Shown piece after piece: positions 45,308-58,390 of a stretch of 64,000 nucleotides of DNA. The notes below the pieces were generated by a model, which worked only from the letters and a program-made list of their open reading frames with translations, searched no databases and had not been told where the DNA came from. Each line of letters starts with the position of its first letter. Within the stretch, counting starts at the first letter, position 1. This stretch comes from Powellomyces hirtus (taxonomy: Eukaryota > Chytridiomycota > Chytridiomycetes > Spizellomycetales > Powellomycetaceae), in assembly GCA_025526995.1 (NCBI GenBank), contig JAHLKG010000003.1, positions 992,001-1,056,000 on the forward strand, in the 5' to 3' direction. Made by a program: the position numbers and the translations under genes.

Positions 45308-45571
45308 TGTTGAGATTGGAGTTGTGAGATAAACCTGTTAAATCAACAGCGCTCCAAGACTCCACGCCACTTCTGCTGTGCACTCTATAATCCATTTAAC
45401 CGCGTATGCTTAAAGCGCTTGCACAGCCACTTTTCTTCTTTTTAGCGTAGATCTTCTTTCACTCTCTCGTTTAGACTTAACAACAACACAATACAAAGTA
45501 CCACTGTCATTGAGAGTGTCGAGCTAGCTTCCCTCTGTTGTACTACACCTTAACCGGACCTGTGCACAACA
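45308..45571 (+). repeat. E2 5' LTR (264 bp)
   Basis: Begins TGTTGAGATTGG and ends GTGCACAACA, directly followed by the PBS. Homologous to 56860-57118 and 57688-57950. Confidence 0.88.
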
Positions 45572-45585
45572 GGTTATGAGCCCTG
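45572..45585 (+). other. E2 primer-binding site
   Basis: GGTTATGAGCCCTG directly abuts the LTR. The first 12 bases are the reverse complement of GGGCTCATAACC, the anticodon arm of initiator tRNA-Met, which implies priming by an internally cut (half) tRNA as in Drosophila copia. Confidence 0.8.
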
Positions 45586-46741: not shown

Positions 46742-46982
46742 TGTTGGTCTGAGAGTATCTGGGTAGATAGTTGAGGAAGCTTTCAGGGTAGTTGACTGAG
46801 CAAAACAATGAAGTAACTTAATCTCACTCGATTAGAGAAAAAGAGAAAAGTCCCACCCAATATACTAAGCATGGAAGGAAAACTACTTATATCGGAGTTA
46901 ATCACGTGGTTGCACATGATCGCGTGATACGCCCTGCGATGGTGCAGTTGTGACTCGATGACAGAGTCTGTACACGCTAACA
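46742..46982 (-). repeat. E1 3' LTR (241 bp)
   Basis: On the plus strand starts TGTTGGTCTGAG and ends CGCTAACA. Compared with the other LTR, one of the two CACGTG motifs is CACATG here. Confidence 0.95.
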
Positions 46983-47097
46983 CCCCCACTCAGACCTGTC
47001 AGTCTGGCAGTGAGAGAGTTGCTCTAGCTACGTTAACTACACACACCCACGCACACACCCCACACCCCCATTTATTACATTTCTAAGAATATGAGGA

Positions 47098-47784
47098 ATG
47101 GCTAGGGTACGTCTATGAGATCCGCGCAAATGAGGCGTAAGCTTTAACTATGTGCCGGTGTAGTTGTCAGGTTCGGGCAAAGCGAAGCAAACGGCAAGAA
47201 AAACGGGACCGCCGGCAGCTGCTCCTGCGGCGACCACAGCTCCGGCTGTGCCGTCGGCACTGGTGCCCTCTGCGCCAGTGGGAGGCGCACCCGCTGCAGG
47301 GTTGTCCCAAGCGGAGATTCAAACGATGTCGGCGGCGTATGCCCAACGGTTCCACCGCAAGGACCGTCAATTGGTCCTGGAACGCCATATCGAGCAAGCA
47401 AAAGACCGGGTGAAGGACCGGTCGAGGTCTGGTACGCCGCTGGGTCGCGCACGGGCGACCAGGATGCTGGATGGGCTGAGATGTGTGCTAGAGGACCGGC
47501 GGAGTCGGAAGACGGCTGTTGGGAAGGGCAAGGGTAAAGCCCAGGCGAAGAAGAAGACTGCGGACAAGAAGTCTGCAGCGGAGGTGAAGAGGATGTGGGA
47601 CATCCTGGAGCGGGAGGCTCCATATAATGATGAGGAAGAGGGGGAGGAGGGGGAATCCGAGGAGTTGGAGGGATCCCCGATCTCTCCAAGCCGACGCTCA
47701 CCCCCAAGCGATGAGGATGATGGAGGAGGGGCAGGTCCATCCTCCTTGGGGGGTATGGCTTCGGGTTCCGCAATTGCGGTGTAG
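47098..47784 (+). CDS. Antisense accessory gene of E1 (basic/acidic low-complexity protein)
   Basis: Runs opposite to E1, starting 115 bp inside its 3' LTR. An ATG in good context (GGAATGG, 47098) encodes MAR, then a GTACGT donor (47107) and TAG acceptor (47161-47163) define a 57-nt intron that joins in phase to LSGSGKAKQTARKTG. Exon 2 (47164-47784) gives about 206 more residues: Ala/Pro-rich, then a helical basic stretch (AYAQRFHRKDRQLVLERHIE; RMLDGLRCVLEDRRSRKT), then Lys-rich, then acidic (EEEGEEGESEELEG) and a Ser/Gly tail. Composition looks like real nuclear-type protein, whereas the opposite frame here is a Pro/Ser/Leu-rich run typical of a shadow. No family was recognised; chromatin or nucleic-acid binding is a guess. 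Confidence 0.5.
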
Positions 47785-50700
47785 ATGCCAAGGTAAGCCC
47801 GCGTTGTGAGTAGTTCTCCTGACATTCAGCGAGTAACACTTGGGCTGGGTGTGCTTCCGTAGGTGCGCCCTCATTGCGTATTCTCTCATCAAATATATGA
47901 GTCCCATTCATAATCTTCAGGACAGTGTCTTTATGTTTGACGGTTGGGAAAGGCTTCGTAAAGATGTCCGCCAATTGATGCTCCGTATTGGTGTCGATAA
48001 TTTCGATAATTTGCTTTGTGAACGAATCTCGTATAGCGTGGTACCGAACGTCGATGTGTTTGGTGCGTTGGTTGATAGCCTTGGTTTGAATCAAGGCCCC
48101 GGCGCTCTGATTATCGACATGGAGAGGGACCGGTCGAGATTTGAAATCCGGTTGAGGTCCCAAAACGTCCGCCAAGAGTTGGCGTAGCCATTTGGCTTCG
48201 TTGTGGCCGGTACTGGCAGCTATGTACTCCGCTTCGGTTGTACTTTGTGCGGTGCACTTCTGCTTGCTGCTTTTCCACAGAACAGGAAACCCATTGTAAA
48301 GGGCCAAAATACCTGTAGTGGACGTCCGGTCGGTGAGGTCTCCTGCATAATCCGCATCCGTGAATACGCGTAGGCCACACGGATCATTTCTTTCGGATGT
48401 AAATTTGAGGGCATAATCGCGGGTACCCTTCAAATAGCGGAAAATGCGTTTAACATTGTTCCAGTCGGAGTTGGTAGGTGCGGCGACGCGGCGCGCAACG
48501 TAACCAACGGCAGTGGCGATATCCCATCGCCATGTGATGGAGGCCCAAGTGAGGACCCCCACTGCTTCCTGATACATTTTGAGATTCGTGAATGGTGTCA
48601 AATCCTCCGGTTGTTGGTTACGCGCTGACATGGCGTACGGGGTGGAGACAGGATGGCAGTCGCTCATGCTGAATTGTTCAAGAGCGTCGTCGATGTACTT
48701 GACATTTGAGATTTTGAGGGTACGAACAGGAGAGTCGAAGTCATATTTGTAAACAAGACCAAGGTGACTGGTTACCCGACCTTGTTCCGTAAACTTGAAC
48801 TTCGAATGTAGCTCCGTTTTGCTGTTTGCCAGAATCTTCGGATCCTTCGCTGCAATAAGCAGGTCGTCGACGAAGACGAGAATAAGAACCAGGTTGTCGT
48901 TCGACGGAGGTGTACGGTCGTCTGTTGCGTACTTGAAAAAAATACACGGGCATACAGAAACCATTTCGTAGCCGAGCTTTGACAGTGCAGTCTTCAAGGT
49001 CTCATACCAAAGAAGAGGTGATTGCTTCAGGCCGTAGAGAGCTTTCAGTAGCTTCAGGACCCAATCGCCTTTGGGGTGATCCGGATCTTTGAATCCCTCA
49101 AACTGCTCGATATAGATATCCTTATCAATATCACTGTTCAGGAAGGCGGTAACAGCATCCATACTGTGGATGTCCAGCCCGTGCTGGACACAATACGCCA
49201 AGAAGAGGCATAGCGCTGTGAATGGTAGCGTAGGTGAGTATGTATCACCAAAGTCGCGACTGGGTTGTTGAGAGAAGCCTTGAGCCACGGCTCTGGCTTT
49301 GAACTTGTTAAAGGTGCCATCGTGATTGACCTTTGTTCGAAGGACCCATGTTGTTCCGATCACGCGCTTGTTGCATGGACGCTTGGTGAGCTCCCATGTA
49401 CCGTTGTCAACTAGGGATTGGTACTCAATGCGTGCAGCCTTGAGAAATTCCTCCTTCTGAGGGGTTTTCATCGCTTGCTTCCATGTCATGGCGTCTTCGT
49501 TGATCGTTGCGTGAGTCCGCGCGTGGGCGGCGTATGCAGCGATGGGGTCATTTCGTCGTGTGCCGACATTGTACGCGGCAACTCGATTCTCCCAGTCATC
49601 CAGTGCGGTAGTATCGAGTAGTGAAAGTTGGGACTCCCAAGTAGGTTCTTGATATCCCTCCCACTTAACCAAGTATTCTTTCGTGTGCACCTTACTGCGG
49701 CGCTCGTCGATAATCTCCTCCACGGTGTATTCGACGTCATCCTCCTGACTCTCCTCATCTAGGAGATCAAGATGTGCTGGATCCTGCTGATATTTGGGTT
49801 CGAGTCCCAAGTCTTCTTTGAAGATCACGTCTTGTGACACTTCGACCTTGTCAGTAACAGGATCCCATACCAGATACCCCTTGGTACCTGTGGGTCGAGC
49901 ATAGCCTACCAAGTAAGCCTTCTTTGCTTGATTCCCCATTTTATCTCGTCTTTTGCTCGTTAGAACGGAATACGCCACGCAACCGATACGCCGGAGATGG
50001 GCAACATCAGGACGCCGGCCAAACAGTATTTCATGCGGCGTCTTCTTGTTGATGCGGTTGTATGTAAGGGAATAGATGTAACCAGCTGCTACCAGTAGAG
50101 CAGGCCAGAATCTTCGGGGTAGTTTCGTATCCACAAAGGTGGCGCGGACCCTGTCCAGCGCCGTGCGATGCCATCGTTTGGCAATCCCGTTTTGCTGACT
50201 CGAATAGGCCGCGGCCTTCTGATGAGTGATACCATTTTCCAATAGGTACTCTAGAACCTCGCCAAAGTATTCGGTGCCTCGATCCGTACGTAGAATCTTG
50301 ATTTGTCGGTCAGTCTGTTTCTCAATCCAAGCCTTGTAGATAAGAAACTTGTCGAGTATGACTGCCGAATCCTTTGAAGGAATAGGGAAAACAGTCACGT
50401 ATCTGGATGCGTGTTCAATGAACTCCAGCGAATAGCGTGATCCTTTGTAACCAGGGATGCGAAATGGTTCTTGTAGGTCTGAATGAATCAGCTCACAGAT
50501 CTCCCTGGTTTCAACGTTACCAAGGGAGAATGGAAGACGAGCGGCTTTTCCTAGCACGCAGGCTTCACAATCTTTGAAGTCGCTTAGATCCCCCACTACG
50601 GACCAACCGTCCGTAACCGATGCCATCTTCTCCAGGACGTGTTTGCCAACGTGTCCAAGACGAGCATGAGCGAGTGTAGGAGAGACTTCAACAGTGCATG

Positions 50701-52672
50701 CTTCTGAATCTGACCACAGACTTTCAGACAGCAGCCTACCTTGCAGGTAATACGCGTTGTTGCAGCGTACGCCTTTGGCGATATCTTTGCCATCTTGCGT
50801 GAAAATGACGTCTCCATTCGACTTGAAGAGCACGTCAACGCCTTGATCGTTACATTTCGCTACCGATACAAGATCTCGTCGTAATCCTGGCACATGCAGG
50901 ACTCCGCCCAGCTTGAGCGGATTCGGATAGTTGTTAACTTCTACTTGTACCGTACCTCAAACTGTAGAGGATAGTGATGTTTTGTCAGCAAGCATAACAG
51001 CTCTGACATCACTGTACACGGTTGAGTGATCCAAGGTCTCTTTGTGAGGTGTCATGTGGTCCGTAGCGCCAGAGTCGATGAGTGCTTCATATGGTTGTTC
51101 TTGGCGGACCCAGACATGTAATGCTTCCACAGCATTTGTGCCAACAGCACCATCAGACGACTGCTTCGTCTTGTTCTTCTCCATCTCGGATTTGAGCTTC
51201 TTTAACACTTCGCACTCCTGTGTCCGGTGTTTAGTGTCTCCACAGGCCCAACAACCCGACTTGTGTGATTGGCCTTTGTTTGATGGAGTGGATTCCTTGT
51301 CCTTCTTGCCGTTCGTTGACTTCTCCCCGTGGGTCTTGCCACCCTTTGGTTTCTTAGAGGCGTCAGTGTGTGCGGCACCTTGTGGCGTATCCGTTGAGGT
51401 CCCGCTAGGTTTCTTAGCCATGTTGGCAGCGATCCTGGATGCAGCGGCCTGTAAACTGCTTAAATCAGTTATGTTTTCTTCATTAGCCTGAACCAAGGCC
51501 GCAAGGTCTGGTGTTAGCGCGTTAATGAAGTAATCCTGAAGGACGTAATCCGGTGTCTTCGGCAGAGAGAATGCCAGCATGTTGAACTGAGTGATGTACT
51601 CATCCATGCGGCCTTTGGGACGCAATTCCCGTAATTTCTGCAGCGAATCTCTAGTGTGGTTTCATGGCGCGAAACGCGCCAGAAGGGCGGACCTAAGACC
51701 GGTGTTGGTTCTACCTGAATCAACGTCTTTGAAGTCATGCCACGTCGTAATTTCGTTCCTTTTACTTGGGGAGAGCGACTGCCACCAAGTGTATGCCCAT
51801 CCTGTGAGTTTCGTAGCCACAAAATCCACGAGAAACTCGGGCGGAACCATTTCGTACTTCACAACTGTCTCAATCTTGTTGATGAACGTTCGAAGTTTGA
51901 CCATATTGGATTCCCCATTGTAGGACCCAATATCTTTCAGCGTTCCATCCACGAAAGCCTTCGCACCTCGACTGTCGACGATTTTGGTCGTCACGCTGTG
52001 TATGCTCGATGTCGGTGATGTAGGGCGGCGTTTGATTGGGGAACGTTGATATTCCTGTTGAGCTCCAATCTCCTGATTGTACTCTGTCCACGGTGCAGCA
52101 AACCCGTCGTTGCGAGTGGGTGATGGTGTGCATACGCGCCGTTGCGCCGTACGTACCTGAGGGTTGATCGGGATGTTCACATCCTGATCCATGCGCCATT
52201 TCATTTGGAGCATTTCCGTTAGTTGGGCTAGAGAATTCTCAAGCCGATCTATCCTATCCATGTCCGCCCCACACGGGCGTACATGCACGGTGTTCGCTGA
52301 TTCCCCACTTGGGAATGCCGCTGGAGTACTGTAGCTGATCGTTCTGTGATCATCCGTACTGCTTGATAGGGGACGGGTATCAACCTTGGCATCCCGTCGG
52401 TTGATGTTTCGGGTACGCCCTTCCAATGCGTCATCGCCCTCGTTGGCGTCGACACTCAAAGACGTTGGCTCTGCCAGTGTATCGTTACCGGCAGAGTTCC
52501 CTCCAATGCTTGGTGATGTCCATTCACCAGGCACTCGTGCGCTTTTCTTTGCGGCATGTTCTACAGCTCGTTGTAGTGTATTGGACCCTGGGGTCTTTCG
52601 ACCCACTAGGCGTCTTAGCATACTACGAGTGTACCGGGGGCTCGTTTTGTTGCCTACCATTTCAGGGCTCAT
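47144..52672 (-). pseudogene. E1 Gag-Pol polyprotein frame with two internal TGA codons
   Basis: A single minus-strand frame runs from the ATG inside the PBS (52672; MSPEMVG) through: gag (about 52672-51350), CCHC zinc knuckle CWACGDTKHRTQEC (about 51250), protease DSGATDHMT (about 51060), integrase (HARLGHV, CEACVLGKAARLPF, HSDLQEPF, RTDRGTEYF; about 50700-49850), chromodomain (49580-49729), reverse transcriptase (about 49400-48600, with FVDDLL and LYGLKQSPLLWY) and RNase H (FTDADYAGD, ADIFTKPF; to about 47900). TGA codons at 51662-51664 and 50957-50959 interrupt it without a frame change. The open sequence after RNase H (to 47144) is Pro-rich and probably only the shadow of the antisense gene. 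Confidence 0.88.
49580..49729 (-). other. Chromodomain in E1 pol
   Basis: YTVEEIIDERRSKVHTKEYL and then VKWEGYQEPTWESQ match the HP1/chromovirus chromodomain. The three aromatic-cage positions (Y of YTVE, W and Y of KWEGY) are present. It lies between the integrase C-terminus and reverse transcriptase. In HP1-like proteins this fold binds methyl-lysine on histone H3; here a role in integration targeting is inferred. Confidence 0.85.
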
Positions 52673-52676
52673 AACC
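52663..52676 (-). other. E1 primer-binding site
   Basis: Minus strand GGTTATGAGCCCTG directly abuts the 5' LTR; the same initiator tRNA-Met anticodon-arm complement as in E2 and E3. Its ATG is the first codon of the gag frame. Confidence 0.85.
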
Positions 52677-52917
52677 TGTTGGTCTGAGAGTATCTGGGTA
52701 GATAGTTGAGGAAGCTTTCAGGGTAGTTGACTGAGCAAAACAATGAAGTAACTTAATCTCACTCGATTAGAGAAAAAGAGAAAAGTCCCACCCGATATAT
52801 TAAGTATGGAAGGAAAACTACTTATATCGGAGTTAATCACGTGGTTGCACGTGATCGCATGATACGCCCTGCGATGGCGCAGTTGTGACTCGATGACAGA
52901 GTCTGTACACGCTAACA
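52677..52917 (-). repeat. E1 5' LTR (241 bp)
   Basis: Identical in length to 46742-46982 with six transition differences. Contains two CACGTG hexamers (52838 and 52848) exactly 10 bp apart. Confidence 0.95.
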
Positions 52918-55900
52918 ATTATTACATCCTATCTACTCAGCCATCATCCCAAAGGATCTTTTTGATCTGGACGTCATGCAGGAAGCTGCAATTTGTCAGG
53001 AACAGCTTACCTCAGATAAGGGCGCCCGTGCGCCCAAAACCGAGTCTCACGTTGAGGCTCATGTGATGCATGGTGACCCGGACGCCAACGCCAATGAATA
53101 CGTGCATCGAAAATCGTGGAAAAAACAACATCGTCACTCAGTTCCAGGGTCTCCCTGTGAACAAACGGGTCATTGGATGAAGGACTGTCCGAAAATGAAG
53201 GATGCGCATGAGCTTCTCAGACAACATCAGCAAGAACCCGCTGCCAAGGCAAACCTCGTTCTGGCAACTAACCACAGATCCTCGCACTCAATTGCTCTTG
53301 ATTCTTGCGCAATGTATCACATCATCAAAGATGCTATCCTTCTCACCAACCTGCGACCCATCCCGGCAGTTCAAATCAGCGTTGCAAACGGCAAAAACCT
53401 CATTGTTCCTCAAGCAGGCATGCTTACTATCAGCAATAATGACACGGATGAAGCTATAGTCTGCGTCGACGTGCTCTACGTACCTGAAGCAAGCCGCAAC
53501 CTGGTTTCCACATCACACTTGAACCAGGAGGGTTATGAAATCACGTTCTTGACTAACGGTTCCTCTATTTTAAAGGACGGCCGCGTCATCCTGCCGCTCC
53601 GCCACAACAGAAATCTGCCATTTGTTGATGGCTATGTTGAAACCACCGCAGCTGCTTTTGCGACCGAAGCTCCACAAAGGACTGCAATGTCTATAAACTA
53701 TGGCATCGAAGCTTTGGGCACATTCGACAACAAGCGTTTCAAGCTGCGAATCTGATCTATTCTCTTGATCTGCCAAACAAAATCGAACCGGAGCACGCGT
53801 TGTGCTCCGGCTGCTCTCTCAGTAAATCCACCTGGCTGCCCTTCAATGGGCAAAACCCTTGACCTGCAACCAAACCTTTTGATCGCATACATTCGGACAT
53901 CCTTGACATGGGCACCAGTCTTCTCTCTCTCTCTGGCACCTGCCACCTCCTCACGTTCATTGACGAATACACACGGTATTCCGTCATCTACCTCCTCAAG
54001 ACCAAAGATCAAACCATTGCTTACTGGCAAAACTATCGCGCGCATGCTGACCATCATCTCGACTGTAAGATCAAGGAGCTGCGCAGTGATAACGGCAGCA
54101 AATACTATCCCCTGCAGGCTGAGCTGCTCGCTGATGGGATTACATTAAACCTTACTCACCCGTACTCATCTCAGCAAAATGGCATTGCTGAACGGTTCAA
54201 CCGTACTCTCATGGGCCAGGTCCGAGCGATTGTTCATGACAGCCGTGCTCCTTTCAAACTTTGGGGAGAGCTTGCTATGGCCGTCAACTATCTGCGTCAA
54301 CGGACGCCATCAACGTCTCTCAACGGAGAGACCCCATACCAACGCTGGTTTGGGACCCCTGCCGATGTATCAAACCTCCGCACCATCTGGAGCAAGGCCT
54401 ATATGCATCAACCTGTGCACCGTCGCACACACCGCAAGCTCGGAGCTCGCGCTGTCGGACCGTTCTGGCTAGTGGGATATCACCCCACTAAACAAGGCAA
54501 CTATTGCCTTTATGATGCATTGACCGATTCAATCATCGATGCACGAGATGTCACAATCAACGAGGCTGATTACATCAGCCCTGTTGCTCAGAGCGACACC
54601 ACTCCCGAATATGTGGTTGAGCGCATCTTGCTCTCTCGCAACGGTGAAGGGGGAGAACAATTCCTTGTCAAGTGGCTTGGCTACAACGAACCAACATGGA
54701 ACCCCCTCAACAACGTCAAGGACTCAGAGGCCCTGACGTGATTCACCGGAATCGAAGATGACGGCACACCCAAAATCGCCGAACTGCATGCTGCATGCAG
54801 CACTGACATTGACGAGCCCGCCACTTACCAGGCGGCAATCAACTCGCCGTATGCGAAAGAGTGGAAACAAACAATTGACACCGAACTCTCATCTCACCAC
54901 ACTAACAAGACGTGGGACACGGATACTATGCAAACACCGCCCGGCACTCACCTTGTTGATTCTAAATGGGTCTTCAACATCAAACACAATGCTGATGGTT
55001 CCATCAAGAAGTTCAAAGCCCGCCTTGTTGCCCGAGGCTTCACGCAGCGTGAAGGCATTGACATCAACAAAACATATGCACCCGTCATCAAGTTTATCAC
55101 CTTACGGGCGCTACTTGCGCTTGCCGCTAAGCTTGACCTTCACGTCCATCAGATGGATGTCATCACCGCGTTTCTCAACGGAGATCTCGTCATAGAGAAC
55201 TGGATGCGGCTTCCAGCCATTGTCGCTGACAATGTTGTCAAACTACGCCGTTCCCTTTACGGCCTTAAACAATCGCCGTGTCTATGGAACAAGGTTCTTG
55301 ACTCCTTCCTTCAACAGCTCGGGTTTTCAGTATCAGAATTTGACACCGCGCTCTATATCAAGCGGACTGACAACACCAAGATTCTAATTGTTGCCATCTA
55401 CGTGGATGATCTCACCATTTTTGCATCAGAGCTCAATGACCTGCTCGCTCTCAAGTTTGCGCTTGCCGAACAGTTCAAGATGGAGGACATGGGGGAGATC
55501 TCTTTCCTTCTTGGTCTTCAGATTACACGCGACCAGTCAAAGTGCTGCATTACCATTGGCCAACAGAAATACATCAAAGACATGATCGACAAGTTTAACC
55601 TTAACGGCATGCGGCCGCATCACATCCCGATGGATCCGAACGTACATCCAAATGCAAACAATGGAGCCGACGCTCTCGACGCATCAGGAATCAAGGAATA
55701 TTAGTCAATCATTGAAACGCTAATGTATCGGATGTTAGGGACTCGCTCCGACCTCATCTACTCCGTCTCTTGCTTATCCCAGTTTCTGGCGACACCGACG
55801 GCCGCACATATGACGGCCGCAAAGAAGGTTTGCGCCTATGCAAACACAACTAGCGATCTCTCTCTTGTCTTCAAAGATGGAGGAGATATCATCGGATACT

Positions 55901-56376
55901 TGGATGCCGACTACGCACGCTGCACGGACACACGCCGCTCAACTTCTGGCTACGTATTCATGCTTAACGGAGCTGCCATTTCATGGAAGTCACAATGTCA
56001 AAAATCAACGGCGTTATCCACAGCAGAAGCAGAATACATTGCACTCGCGGAATGCGCGAAGGAAGCACTCTGGATCCAGGGTCTCCTATCTGAACTGTCA
56101 GCAATGGAACAGACAGCAGTTCTCATTTATGAGGACAATCAGGCCGCCATTAAGCTTGCTGCCAATCCAATGCATCACCAACGAACCAAACACCCTGACG
56201 TCCGTTATCACTTCCTGCGAGACCTCATTGGTAACGAGCGCATTCACCTACAGTACATTGAGTCCAAGCTCATGGTTGCTGATGCCTTGACAAAACCACT
56301 ACCTCGCCCATTACTTGACAATCTGCGACACCGGACTGGACTCCAAACAAAACCAGATTACGCCAATTTTCATTGA
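52918..56376 (+). pseudogene. E2 gag C-terminus and pol remnant
   Basis: Continues E2 after the E1 insertion. A degraded zinc knuckle (CEQTGHWMKDCP, about 53153; first Cys pair lost), protease LDSCAMYH (about 53305; catalytic DSG now DSC), a frameshifted pre-integrase stretch (53757-53900), then integrase (FIDEYTRYSV, RSDNGSKYY, HPYSSQQNGIAERF), a chromodomain (54610-54738), TGA 54739-54741, reverse transcriptase (LVARGFTQREGIDINKTYAP, LYGLKQSP, YVDDLTIFA), TAG 55702-55704 and RNase H (YLDADYA, STAEAEYIAL, DALTKPLPRP) ending at TGA 56374-56376. Copia domain order is clear; the element cannot be autonomous now. Confidence 0.88.
54610..54738 (+). other. Chromodomain in E2 pol
   Basis: YVVERILLSRNGEGGEQFLV then KWLGYNEPTWNP matches the chromodomain core with all three cage aromatics (Y, W, Y). 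It occupies the same site as in E1, after integrase and before reverse transcriptase, and is cut by TGA at 54739. E1 and E2 are otherwise clearly different families by LTR and gag. Confidence 0.82.
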
Positions 56377-56394
56377 TATACACCCGCCGTAAAT

Positions 56395-56835
56395 TTAGTT
56401 GAAATACACCCGCCGCAACCACCATCTCAATCGACAATCCGACTTGTTGCATTTTGGGCAGCGTATTTCTCCACTCTGATGCACCAGACCCCGTGAACAG
56501 CTCTCACACAGAAAACAGGGGTTTCTTTCTCCACAGGCGTGCGGCGTCTGACAGTCTTTCTTTTCGAAACACCTATCACACCGCCTTCTCGTTACTTTTC
56601 CTTCAAAGGGGTTAACCCACTGCTTTCTGTGCAATGCAAGATATCCATACCCTGAAACCAGCACAACACAGCTCTTTCCCTACCTGCAGATAACACATCT
56701 ACGTGCAGCATTGTCGGGTGTCACCCAAATGTACTTTAAACACCGGAAGCACAGCAGGTGCCCACAGTCCCCACAGAATTCGGCATTTCGAAAAAGGCAA
56801 ACAGGACACTTCGGAGCTCGACCGTCTTGGGGCAT
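56395..56835 (-). CDS. Antisense RING/cysteine-rich gene of E2, copy A (127 aa)
   Basis: Opposite in strand to E2, between pol (stop 56376) and the 3' LTR (56860). Exon 1 56835-56684, intron 56683-56627 (57 nt, GT-AG), exon 2 56626-56395. Exon 1 encodes a C3HC4 RING: CPVC ... CGHLLCFRC ... CVIC. Exon 2 adds a second metal-binding module: CDRC, HAC, CFLCESC, CPKC, then SDCRLRWW. The ATG is only 25 bp from the LTR edge, so transcription must begin inside the LTR. RING proteins are usually E3 ubiquitin ligases; that role here is inferred. An antisense position would let the intron survive retrotransposition. Confidence 0.65.
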
Positions 56836-56859
56836 GTTTGGTCCCCAAAGTCGGGGGAG

Positions 56860-57118
56860 TGTTGAGAGTGGACTTTTGAGATAAACCTGTCAAATCGACA
56901 GCGCTCCAAAACTCCACGTGACTTCCGCTGCACAATGGTGTTTCATCTGACCACGTATGCTTAGATAGCTTGCACAGCCACTTTTCCTTCTTCTCATTAG
57001 CGCAGATCTTCTTTTCACCATTTACATAGAACAACGATACAATCATACCACTGTCATTGAGAGTGTCGAGCTAGCTTTCCTCTGTTGCACTACACCTTAA
57101 CCGGACCTATGCACAACA
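56860..57118 (+). repeat. E2 3' LTR (copy A)
   Basis: Starts TGTTGAGAGTGG after polypurine GTCGGGGGAG and ends ATGCACAACA. Confidence 0.88.
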
Positions 57119-57224
57119 GACAAAACCGCTACCTTGCCCATTACTTGACGATCTGCGACACCGGACTGGACTCCAAACAAAACCAGATTACACCAAATTT
57201 AATTGATATACACCCGCTGTAAAT

Positions 57225-57662
57225 CTAGTTGAAATACACCTGCCGCATCCACCATCTCAATTGACAATCTGACTTGTTGCATTTTGGGCAGTGTATTTCT
57301 CCACTCCAATGCACCAGATCCTGTGAACAGCTCCCACACAGAGAACAGGGGTCATCACGCCCACAGGCGTGCAGCGTTTGACAGTCCTTTATTGTATGAC
57401 ACCTTGAACACCGCCTTCTTGTTTCTTCCCCTTCAAAGAGGTTAACCCACAGCTTTCTGTGCAATACGAAACATCAGTACCCTGTAACCAGCACAACGGA
57501 GCTCCTCCCTCACCTGCAGATAACACATCCGCGTACAATGTTGTCAGCTGTCACCAAAACGTATTTAAAACACCGGAAGCACAGCAGGTGTCTGCAGCTT
57601 CCACAGAAATTGGCATTGGGGTCAAGACAAACAGGACACTTTGGAGCTTGCGCGCGTTGCAT
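57225..57662 (-). CDS. Antisense RING/cysteine-rich gene, copy B (126 aa)
   Basis: Exon 1 57662-57514, intron 57513-57457 (57 nt, as in copy A), exon 2 57456-57225. All zinc-ligand motifs of copy A are kept: CPVC, CRHLLCFRC, CVIC, then CSRC, HACG, CSLCGSC, CPKC, SDCQLRWW. Many other residues differ, yet both frames stay open across both exons, which argues for past selection on the protein. The ATG lies 26 bp from the LTR start. Confidence 0.65.
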
Positions 57663-57687
57663 GTTCTGGTCTCCAAAGTTGGGGGAG

Positions 57688-57950
57688 TGTTGAGTTTGGA
57701 CTTGTGAGATAAACCTGTCAAATCGACAGCGCGCCAAGACTCCACGCCACTTCTGCTGCGCACTGGTGCTTCATTTAACTGCGTATGCTCAGATAGCTTG
57801 CACAGCCACTTTTTCTCCTTCTTAGCGTAGATCTCTTTCCACCCATTGTTTACACTTAACAACAACACAATACAAAGTACCATTGTCATTGAGAGTGTCG
57901 AGCTAGCTTCCCTCTGTTGTACTATACCTTAACCAGACCTACGCACAACA
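57688..57950 (+). repeat. E2-family LTR, copy B
   Basis: Starts TGTTGAGTTTGG after a GGGGGAG purine tract and ends ACGCACAACA. Followed directly by CTATCACAGC, not by a primer-binding site. Confidence 0.85.
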
Positions 57951-58376: not shown

Positions 58377-58390
58377 GGTTATGAGCCCTG
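58377..58390 (+). other. E3 primer-binding site
   Basis: GGTTATGAGCCCTG abuts the LTR, identical to E1 and E2; complementary to the initiator tRNA-Met anticodon arm. Confidence 0.82.

Follow-up and report, generated by a model that had tools for sequence, protein, structure and literature searches.

A probable antisense RING-type accessory gene with a short intron in a Ty1/Copia retrotransposon family of Powellomyces hirtus

Introduction

How does a gene with an intron persist inside an LTR retrotransposon, and does such a gene serve the element that carries it? The question is raised by a two-exon gene on the minus strand (56395-56835) between pol and the 3' LTR of E2, a chromodomain-bearing element in the 64,000-nucleotide stretch of Powellomyces hirtus DNA analyzed here (the window; C3:992001-1056000 of a 29.26-Mb assembly in 60 contigs, all of which was searched). 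Positions are those of the window unless a contig or locus is named.

Antisense accessory ORFs without an established function have been described in LTR elements (PMC7264820). One class, aORF-3R, includes gene23 of maize Grande and the ORFs of rice RIRE2, Silene Retand, and bean PvRetro13, and occurs in most copies of these elements (PMC7264820, PMC11963269). The antisense ORFs of Retand mostly encode TRP28, and some encode SMC and other domains (PMC11963269). The preliminary description of the locus noted antisense ORFs in some plant LTR elements, which holds for Grande and Retand, but the phenomenon is not confined to plants: Boty of the fungus Botrytis cinerea carries an antisense additional gene, brtn (PMC7264820, PMC8365987, PMC4227169). 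Among retroviruses, HBZ of HTLV-1 and APH-2 of HTLV-2 are antisense genes with spliced transcripts that arise from the 3' LTR, and HBZ and APH-2 to APH-4, antisense proteins made from spliced transcripts, lower viral expression (PMC10186651). The portion of the open-access literature covered yielded no antisense gene of an LTR retrotransposon that bears a RING or contains an intron; in the available text of the sources, the word "ring" occurs 0 times in PMC7264820, and "intron" occurs 0 times in PMC7264820 and PMC11963269.

Results

The element is a Ty1/Copia retrotransposon, as its reverse transcriptase (54928-55704, plus strand) matches RVT_2 with an E value of 2.8e-60, integrase core and SH3-like domains lie upstream of the reverse transcriptase, and LTRs are present. 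In protein comparisons the reverse transcriptase shares 84% identity with a Powellomyces hirtus sequence over about half of the query, and the best match overall has 77% identity over 94%. The 5' LTR (45308-45571, plus strand) is followed directly, at 45572-45585, by a primer-binding-site-like sequence, GGTTATGAGCCCTG, which appears a second time near 58380, close to the LTR of the next element. We take this sequence to resemble the complement of the initiator tRNA anticodon arm, making it a putative half-tRNA primer site. Further along the plus strand come a gag/protease-region piece (52976-53755; Pol_BBD, with a zinc knuckle recognized by eye), the Pfam-supported integrase core, SH3-like domain, and chromodomain (53908-54741), and, beyond the reverse transcriptase, the RNase H end of pol (55723-56376), which has no Pfam match and is named by its position.

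The preliminary description of E2 was incomplete, in that it missed two rearrangements. A second Copia element (46742-52917, minus strand; identified from repeats and Pfam) is nested in E2 and splits it, and the E2 tail, consisting of the end of pol, the RING gene, and an LTR, is present as a tandem duplicate (56289-57118 and 57119-57950). The window therefore holds two RING copies, which belong to different subfamilies, and two 3' LTRs, of which the first (56860-57118, plus strand) is the presumed origin of the antisense transcript and the one in the duplicated tail (57688-57950, plus strand) is 87.5% identical to the 5' LTR. The E2 LTRs in the window are 81-88% alike, which indicates that this copy is old and composite.

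In both Copia elements, a chromodomain (PF00385) follows the SH3-like domain of the integrase (53908-54741, plus strand, E 7.8e-8; 47144-50893, minus strand, E 1e-7). According to a 2009 survey, chromodomains in Ty1/Copia were found only in diatom CoDi-A elements (PMC2774666). E2 resembles CoDi-A in being a Ty1/Copia element with an integrase chromodomain; it differs in that its chromodomain lies 3' of the SH3-like domain, in residing in a fungal genome, and in its antisense RING gene, of which the covered passages on CoDi-A make no mention (PMC2774666).

The antisense gene is convergent with pol: 24 nt separate its ATG from the 3' LTR (which starts at 56860), and 18 nt separate its stop from that of pol (56376). 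All of its parts are on the minus strand. Exon 1 (56684-56835), recognized from the spliced frame and Pfam, runs from the ATG (56835) through a C3HC4 RING module. The 57-nt intron (56627-56683) reads GTAGGG...TTGCACAG and ends in CACAG. Exon 2 (56395-56626) encodes a C4C4 RING-like module and a basic/aromatic tail and closes with TAA (56395-56397). The spliced product has 127 amino acids. The second RING copy has the same parts, with exon 1 at 57514-57662, a 57-nt intron (GTGAGG...TACTGAT...CACAG) at 57457-57513, and exon 2 with its stop at 57225-57456.

The gene is a regular constituent of the family. A DNA search of the genome for the RING gene yielded 41 places, with scores for 40 of the 43 candidates; a search for RNase H gave 41 candidates, 40 of them scored. 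Wherever the 3' end of pol is complete, in 37 of the scored copies, the antisense RING gene abuts RNase H, and the three copies with a truncated RNase H all lack it. Distances between RING genes agree with those between the corresponding RNase H sequences (Mantel r 0.88; 31 copies), which argues that the gene was inherited together with pol inside the family. The spliced frame reads through from ATG to stop in 19 of the 40 copies aligned, including one with a 6-nt in-frame deletion, and is disrupted in 21 by stops, frameshifts, rearrangements, or loss of the start codon. Five rearranged copies (L035-L038 and L040) were dropped from the alignment, leaving 35 for site counts. A 2-nt gap immediately 5' of the first ATG is common to 8 of the 35; in six of them the start is shifted one codon downstream, and in the other two ATA stands in its place.

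Replication of the family is likely to have continued until recently, because one copy with long gag and pol frames, within a tandem array, has LTRs identical at 257 of 257 bases, although conversion could also account for this identity. At C3:1778681-1789169 (partly within locus L048), E2-type elements are arranged head to tail with shared LTRs and a period of 5116 bp.

The intron is conserved along with the exons. GT and AG are found in all 35 aligned copies and a YTRAY branch motif in 33; by these signals, it is a predicted spliceosomal intron. The branch motif is missing from L021 and from the first copy in the window, where it has been lost (TATGGAT) and the donor is weaker. Of the 35 introns, 31 measure 57 nt, three 56 nt (L021, L024, and L026), and one 59 nt (L027), and GT...AG is retained in four of the five copies that were dropped as rearranged. 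An in-frame stop lies just upstream of exon 2 in every one of the 35 copies, and in 31 the first cysteine of the exon is not preceded by an in-frame ATG. Exon 2 is constrained nevertheless (see below), and this constraint therefore implies splicing. In the genomic sense RNA, the intron would read CT...AC and stay unspliced, which explains how it persists through retrotransposition. A host helicase gene nearby has one intron candidate, of 68 nt, with CTGAT.

Averaged over the gene, selection is hard to see. A single whole-gene omega is 0.75 (dlnL 3.77 versus omega 1). Divided by branch, the RING gene gives 0.99 on internal and 0.64 on terminal branches, whereas the RNase H control gives 0.18 and 0.65, respectively. 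The 168 pooled shared changes have a ratio of 0.92 (P 0.25), so that neutrality is not rejected. We accordingly discarded whole-gene dN/dS as proof of constraint: the NG86 value of 0.59, summed over 17 chosen copies, rises to 0.92 once the base spectrum is modelled, and the internal omega is 0.99.

The cysteine codons behave differently. For the 18 cysteine codons of the window copy, internal-branch omega is 0.01 (dlnL 23.6 versus omega 1), with both exons contributing (dlnL 11.9 for exon 1 and 11.8 for exon 2). The 17 ligands of a first test had been chosen partly from the same copies, and the test was repeated with all cysteines of the window copy alone. Adding H26 brings dlnL to 25.0, compared with a maximum of 14.5 among 10000 random 19-codon sets, and the cysteines of the wrong frames carry no constraint signal. 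Smaller signals are present at His, Ser, Gly, and Trp, and the non-cysteine codons pooled have an omega of about 1 on internal branches. The expectation of dN/dS below 1 in the preliminary description is thus borne out in part, the constraint being concentrated at Cys and His. A near-neutral rate outside the cysteines would be expected if constraint on that part is relaxed or if that part follows a partner that itself changes.

Indels tell of the same constraint. The 385 exon columns (35 copies) contain 0 shared gap events, compared with 14 events in the 281 columns of the adjacent LTR (33 copies; Fisher P 4.7e-6); when overlapping LTR events are merged, 8 remain (P 9.5e-4). The cysteine constraint and the absence of shared exon indels together indicate that both modules were translated and that their cysteines mattered in the lineages that replicated. 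Randomly broken frames in other copies, named at the outset as a sign against a functional gene, are not what we see: 21 of 40 copies are broken, yet no exon indel is common between copies. A chance open frame is ruled out by the family-wide presence of the gene, by selection at the cysteine codons, and by exons without shared indels.

Module 1 has the ligands C10, C13, C24, H26, C29, C32, C47, and C50, with C3HC4 spacing, and each of the seven diverse members compared has all eight. Among the 35 copies, C10 and C24 are each changed twice, C29 and C32 once each, and the other four never. Module 2 is C4C4, and its eight cysteines do not vary across the eight diverse sequences compared. None of the sequences scanned (the window copy, another element copy, and a non-element copy on contig C1) exceeds the curated Pfam cut-offs; their matches are to zf-C3HC4_4 (window copy, module 1, E 0.017), zf-RING_UBOX (the other element copy, module 1, E 8.6e-5), and zf-C3HC4_3 (the C1 copy, E 7.9e-5, in two stretches). 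The best PDB match of the family profile is a tandem RNF4 RING construct, with an E value of 1.5e-5 that combines two stretches of 0.04 and 0.09; matches to single RINGs in the PDB lie at about 0.005-0.01. Module 2 is weakly RING-like, with the best RING model matching exon 2 alone at E 0.025, and an AlphaFold model built for this exon from two rows has a pLDDT of 40, too low to inform on the fold. Searches for homologues found none among database proteins or in IMG/VR.

Residues typical of E3-type RINGs accompany the ligands: Arg51, just after the last ligand, is present in 35 of 35 copies and Val/Ile12, in loop 1, in 34 of 35, while the C1 copy has Gln at position 51. We assume that these residues act as in RNF4-type RINGs, where a hydrophobic residue binds the E2 of the ubiquitin system and a linchpin arginine serves E2-ubiquitin engagement. 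The family resembles RNF4-like and TRIM RING E3s, which are among the best PDB profile matches, in its C3HC4 spacing, its loop 1 Val/Ile, and its Arg past the last ligand. It differs from them in that the matches are almost confined to module 1 and in having a second, C4C4 module joined directly.

Discussion

We conclude that the gene is probably a genuine accessory gene of this Ty1/Copia family, placed antisense just inside the 3' LTR and requiring the removal of one short intron. Exons, intron, family-wide presence, and selection all support the antisense RING gene with a 57-nt intron that had been proposed for E2. In the mechanism that we envisage, minus-strand transcription would begin within the 3' LTR or beyond it, the host machinery would splice the transcript, and the product would be a 127-amino-acid protein with two zinc modules. 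The data suggest that the element makes its own ubiquitin-ligase-like protein. Because Val/Ile12 and Arg51 fit E2-ubiquitin engagement, an E3 is our first choice, and on balance we lean toward a first RING that would work as a ubiquitin E3, in which case target binding would fall to the second module and the fast-evolving surface. For the target itself, a host silencing or restriction factor is a tentative proposal, and the Gag or integrase of the element, for copy control, is a more doubtful one.

Like the RING gene, the aORF-3R genes of plant elements lie antisense between pol and the 3' LTR, occur in most copies, and are thought to be accessory (PMC7264820, PMC11963269). According to the same descriptions, their products are related to SMC or TRP28 or have no clear similarity, in contrast to the RING here, and Retand belongs to a Gypsy lineage. 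Boty with brtn is, like E2, a fungal LTR element with an antisense extra gene, a comparison that draws on the descriptions in citing papers; it differs in that its host element is called BcGypsy1 (PMC8365987).

HBZ and APH-2 resemble the E2 gene in being antisense, at the 3' end next to the 3' LTR, and in having an intron, which in E2 is recognized from sequence (PMC10186651). They differ in belonging to retroviruses, in encoding bZIP or other non-RING proteins, and in that splicing of HBZ alters the N terminus (PMC10186651). The comparison is thus one of how the genes may work and not of descent, as no bZIP family is among the Pfam matches of the window, element, and C1 copies. By this analogy, the protein might restrain its own element, in copy number or latency, instead of acting on a host factor. 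The shared anatomy and the lowered viral expression in the presence of HBZ and APH-2 to APH-4 speak for self-restraint (PMC10186651), but HBZ acts as a bZIP factor and no such family was matched by the RING protein, and we consider this explanation unlikely.

The origin of the gene bears on a second alternative, namely, that the RING gene belongs in the first place to a host family, from which the element copies were captured later and with which they are still in exchange. Six RING loci lie outside E2-type elements (C1:350938, C34:35810, C17:559327, C5:626868, C3:1068874, and C11:802820/803613). The copy at C1:350938-351361 is open in both exons, and its intron, which interrupts the same codon in the same phase, has a GTGAGT donor and a length of 67 nt (counted by eye), a number not divisible by 3. 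Neither a gag-pol match of the window element types E1, E2, and E3 nor an E2 LTR lies within about 4.7 kb of this copy. These features would suit a host gene. However, the C1 copy shares only 50% protein identity with an element copy, the other five loci are fragments or broken, and the element copies track their own pol, so that a primary host family seems improbable. The host paralogue that had been envisaged thus has a candidate in one of six loci, and transfer may have run from host to element or the other way.

Other observations concern the surroundings of these loci. An E2-type LTR lies about 4 kb from the C34 locus. We considered the locus at C3:1068874 (L044) as a RING gene of a second Copia family and rejected it, because the apparent 3' LTR of that element, a many-copy repeat, separates pol from the RING. 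Dynein light chain-like frames, which we take to be LC8-like, lie a few hundred bases from non-element RING genes and in divergent orientation (L042:5521-6207 and L043:3619-4338); related DNA recurs elsewhere in the genome.

The antisense RNA might itself be the functional product, through dsRNA/siRNA or transcriptional interference with gag-pol, leaving the protein incidental. Silencing may draw on the antisense transcripts of LTR elements (PMC7264820), and the convergence with pol, at a distance of 18 nt, would favor such a role. Yet an RNA function leaves unexplained why Cys and His are under selection in one frame per exon and why an intron with a branch site is conserved, and we regard it as quite improbable as the sole explanation; RNA and protein roles could both hold. 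That a host gene fragment was trapped beside the LTR and carried without function is most improbable, for although a mean internal omega near 1, the 21 of 40 copies that are not open, and the six related loci outside E2-type elements would be in keeping with it, the cysteine omega of 0.01 already contradicts it, as do exons without shared indels and splice signals kept across subfamilies.

Returning to an accessory gene of the element, we see about an even chance that the fuller picture is correct: that a non-retroviral LTR element in an early-diverging fungus encodes an antisense, necessarily spliced RING ligase, comparable to HBZ, in which a zinc scaffold would hold a fast-evolving target surface for use in conflict with the host or in self-restraint. 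An antisense intron shows a route by which introns can persist in a retroelement. Once conserved, such an intron also points to the relevant strand and frame, and the zinc-module design is recognizable. As some forty copies of different age lie within one 29-Mb genome, the function, splicing, and target of this gene are directly testable.
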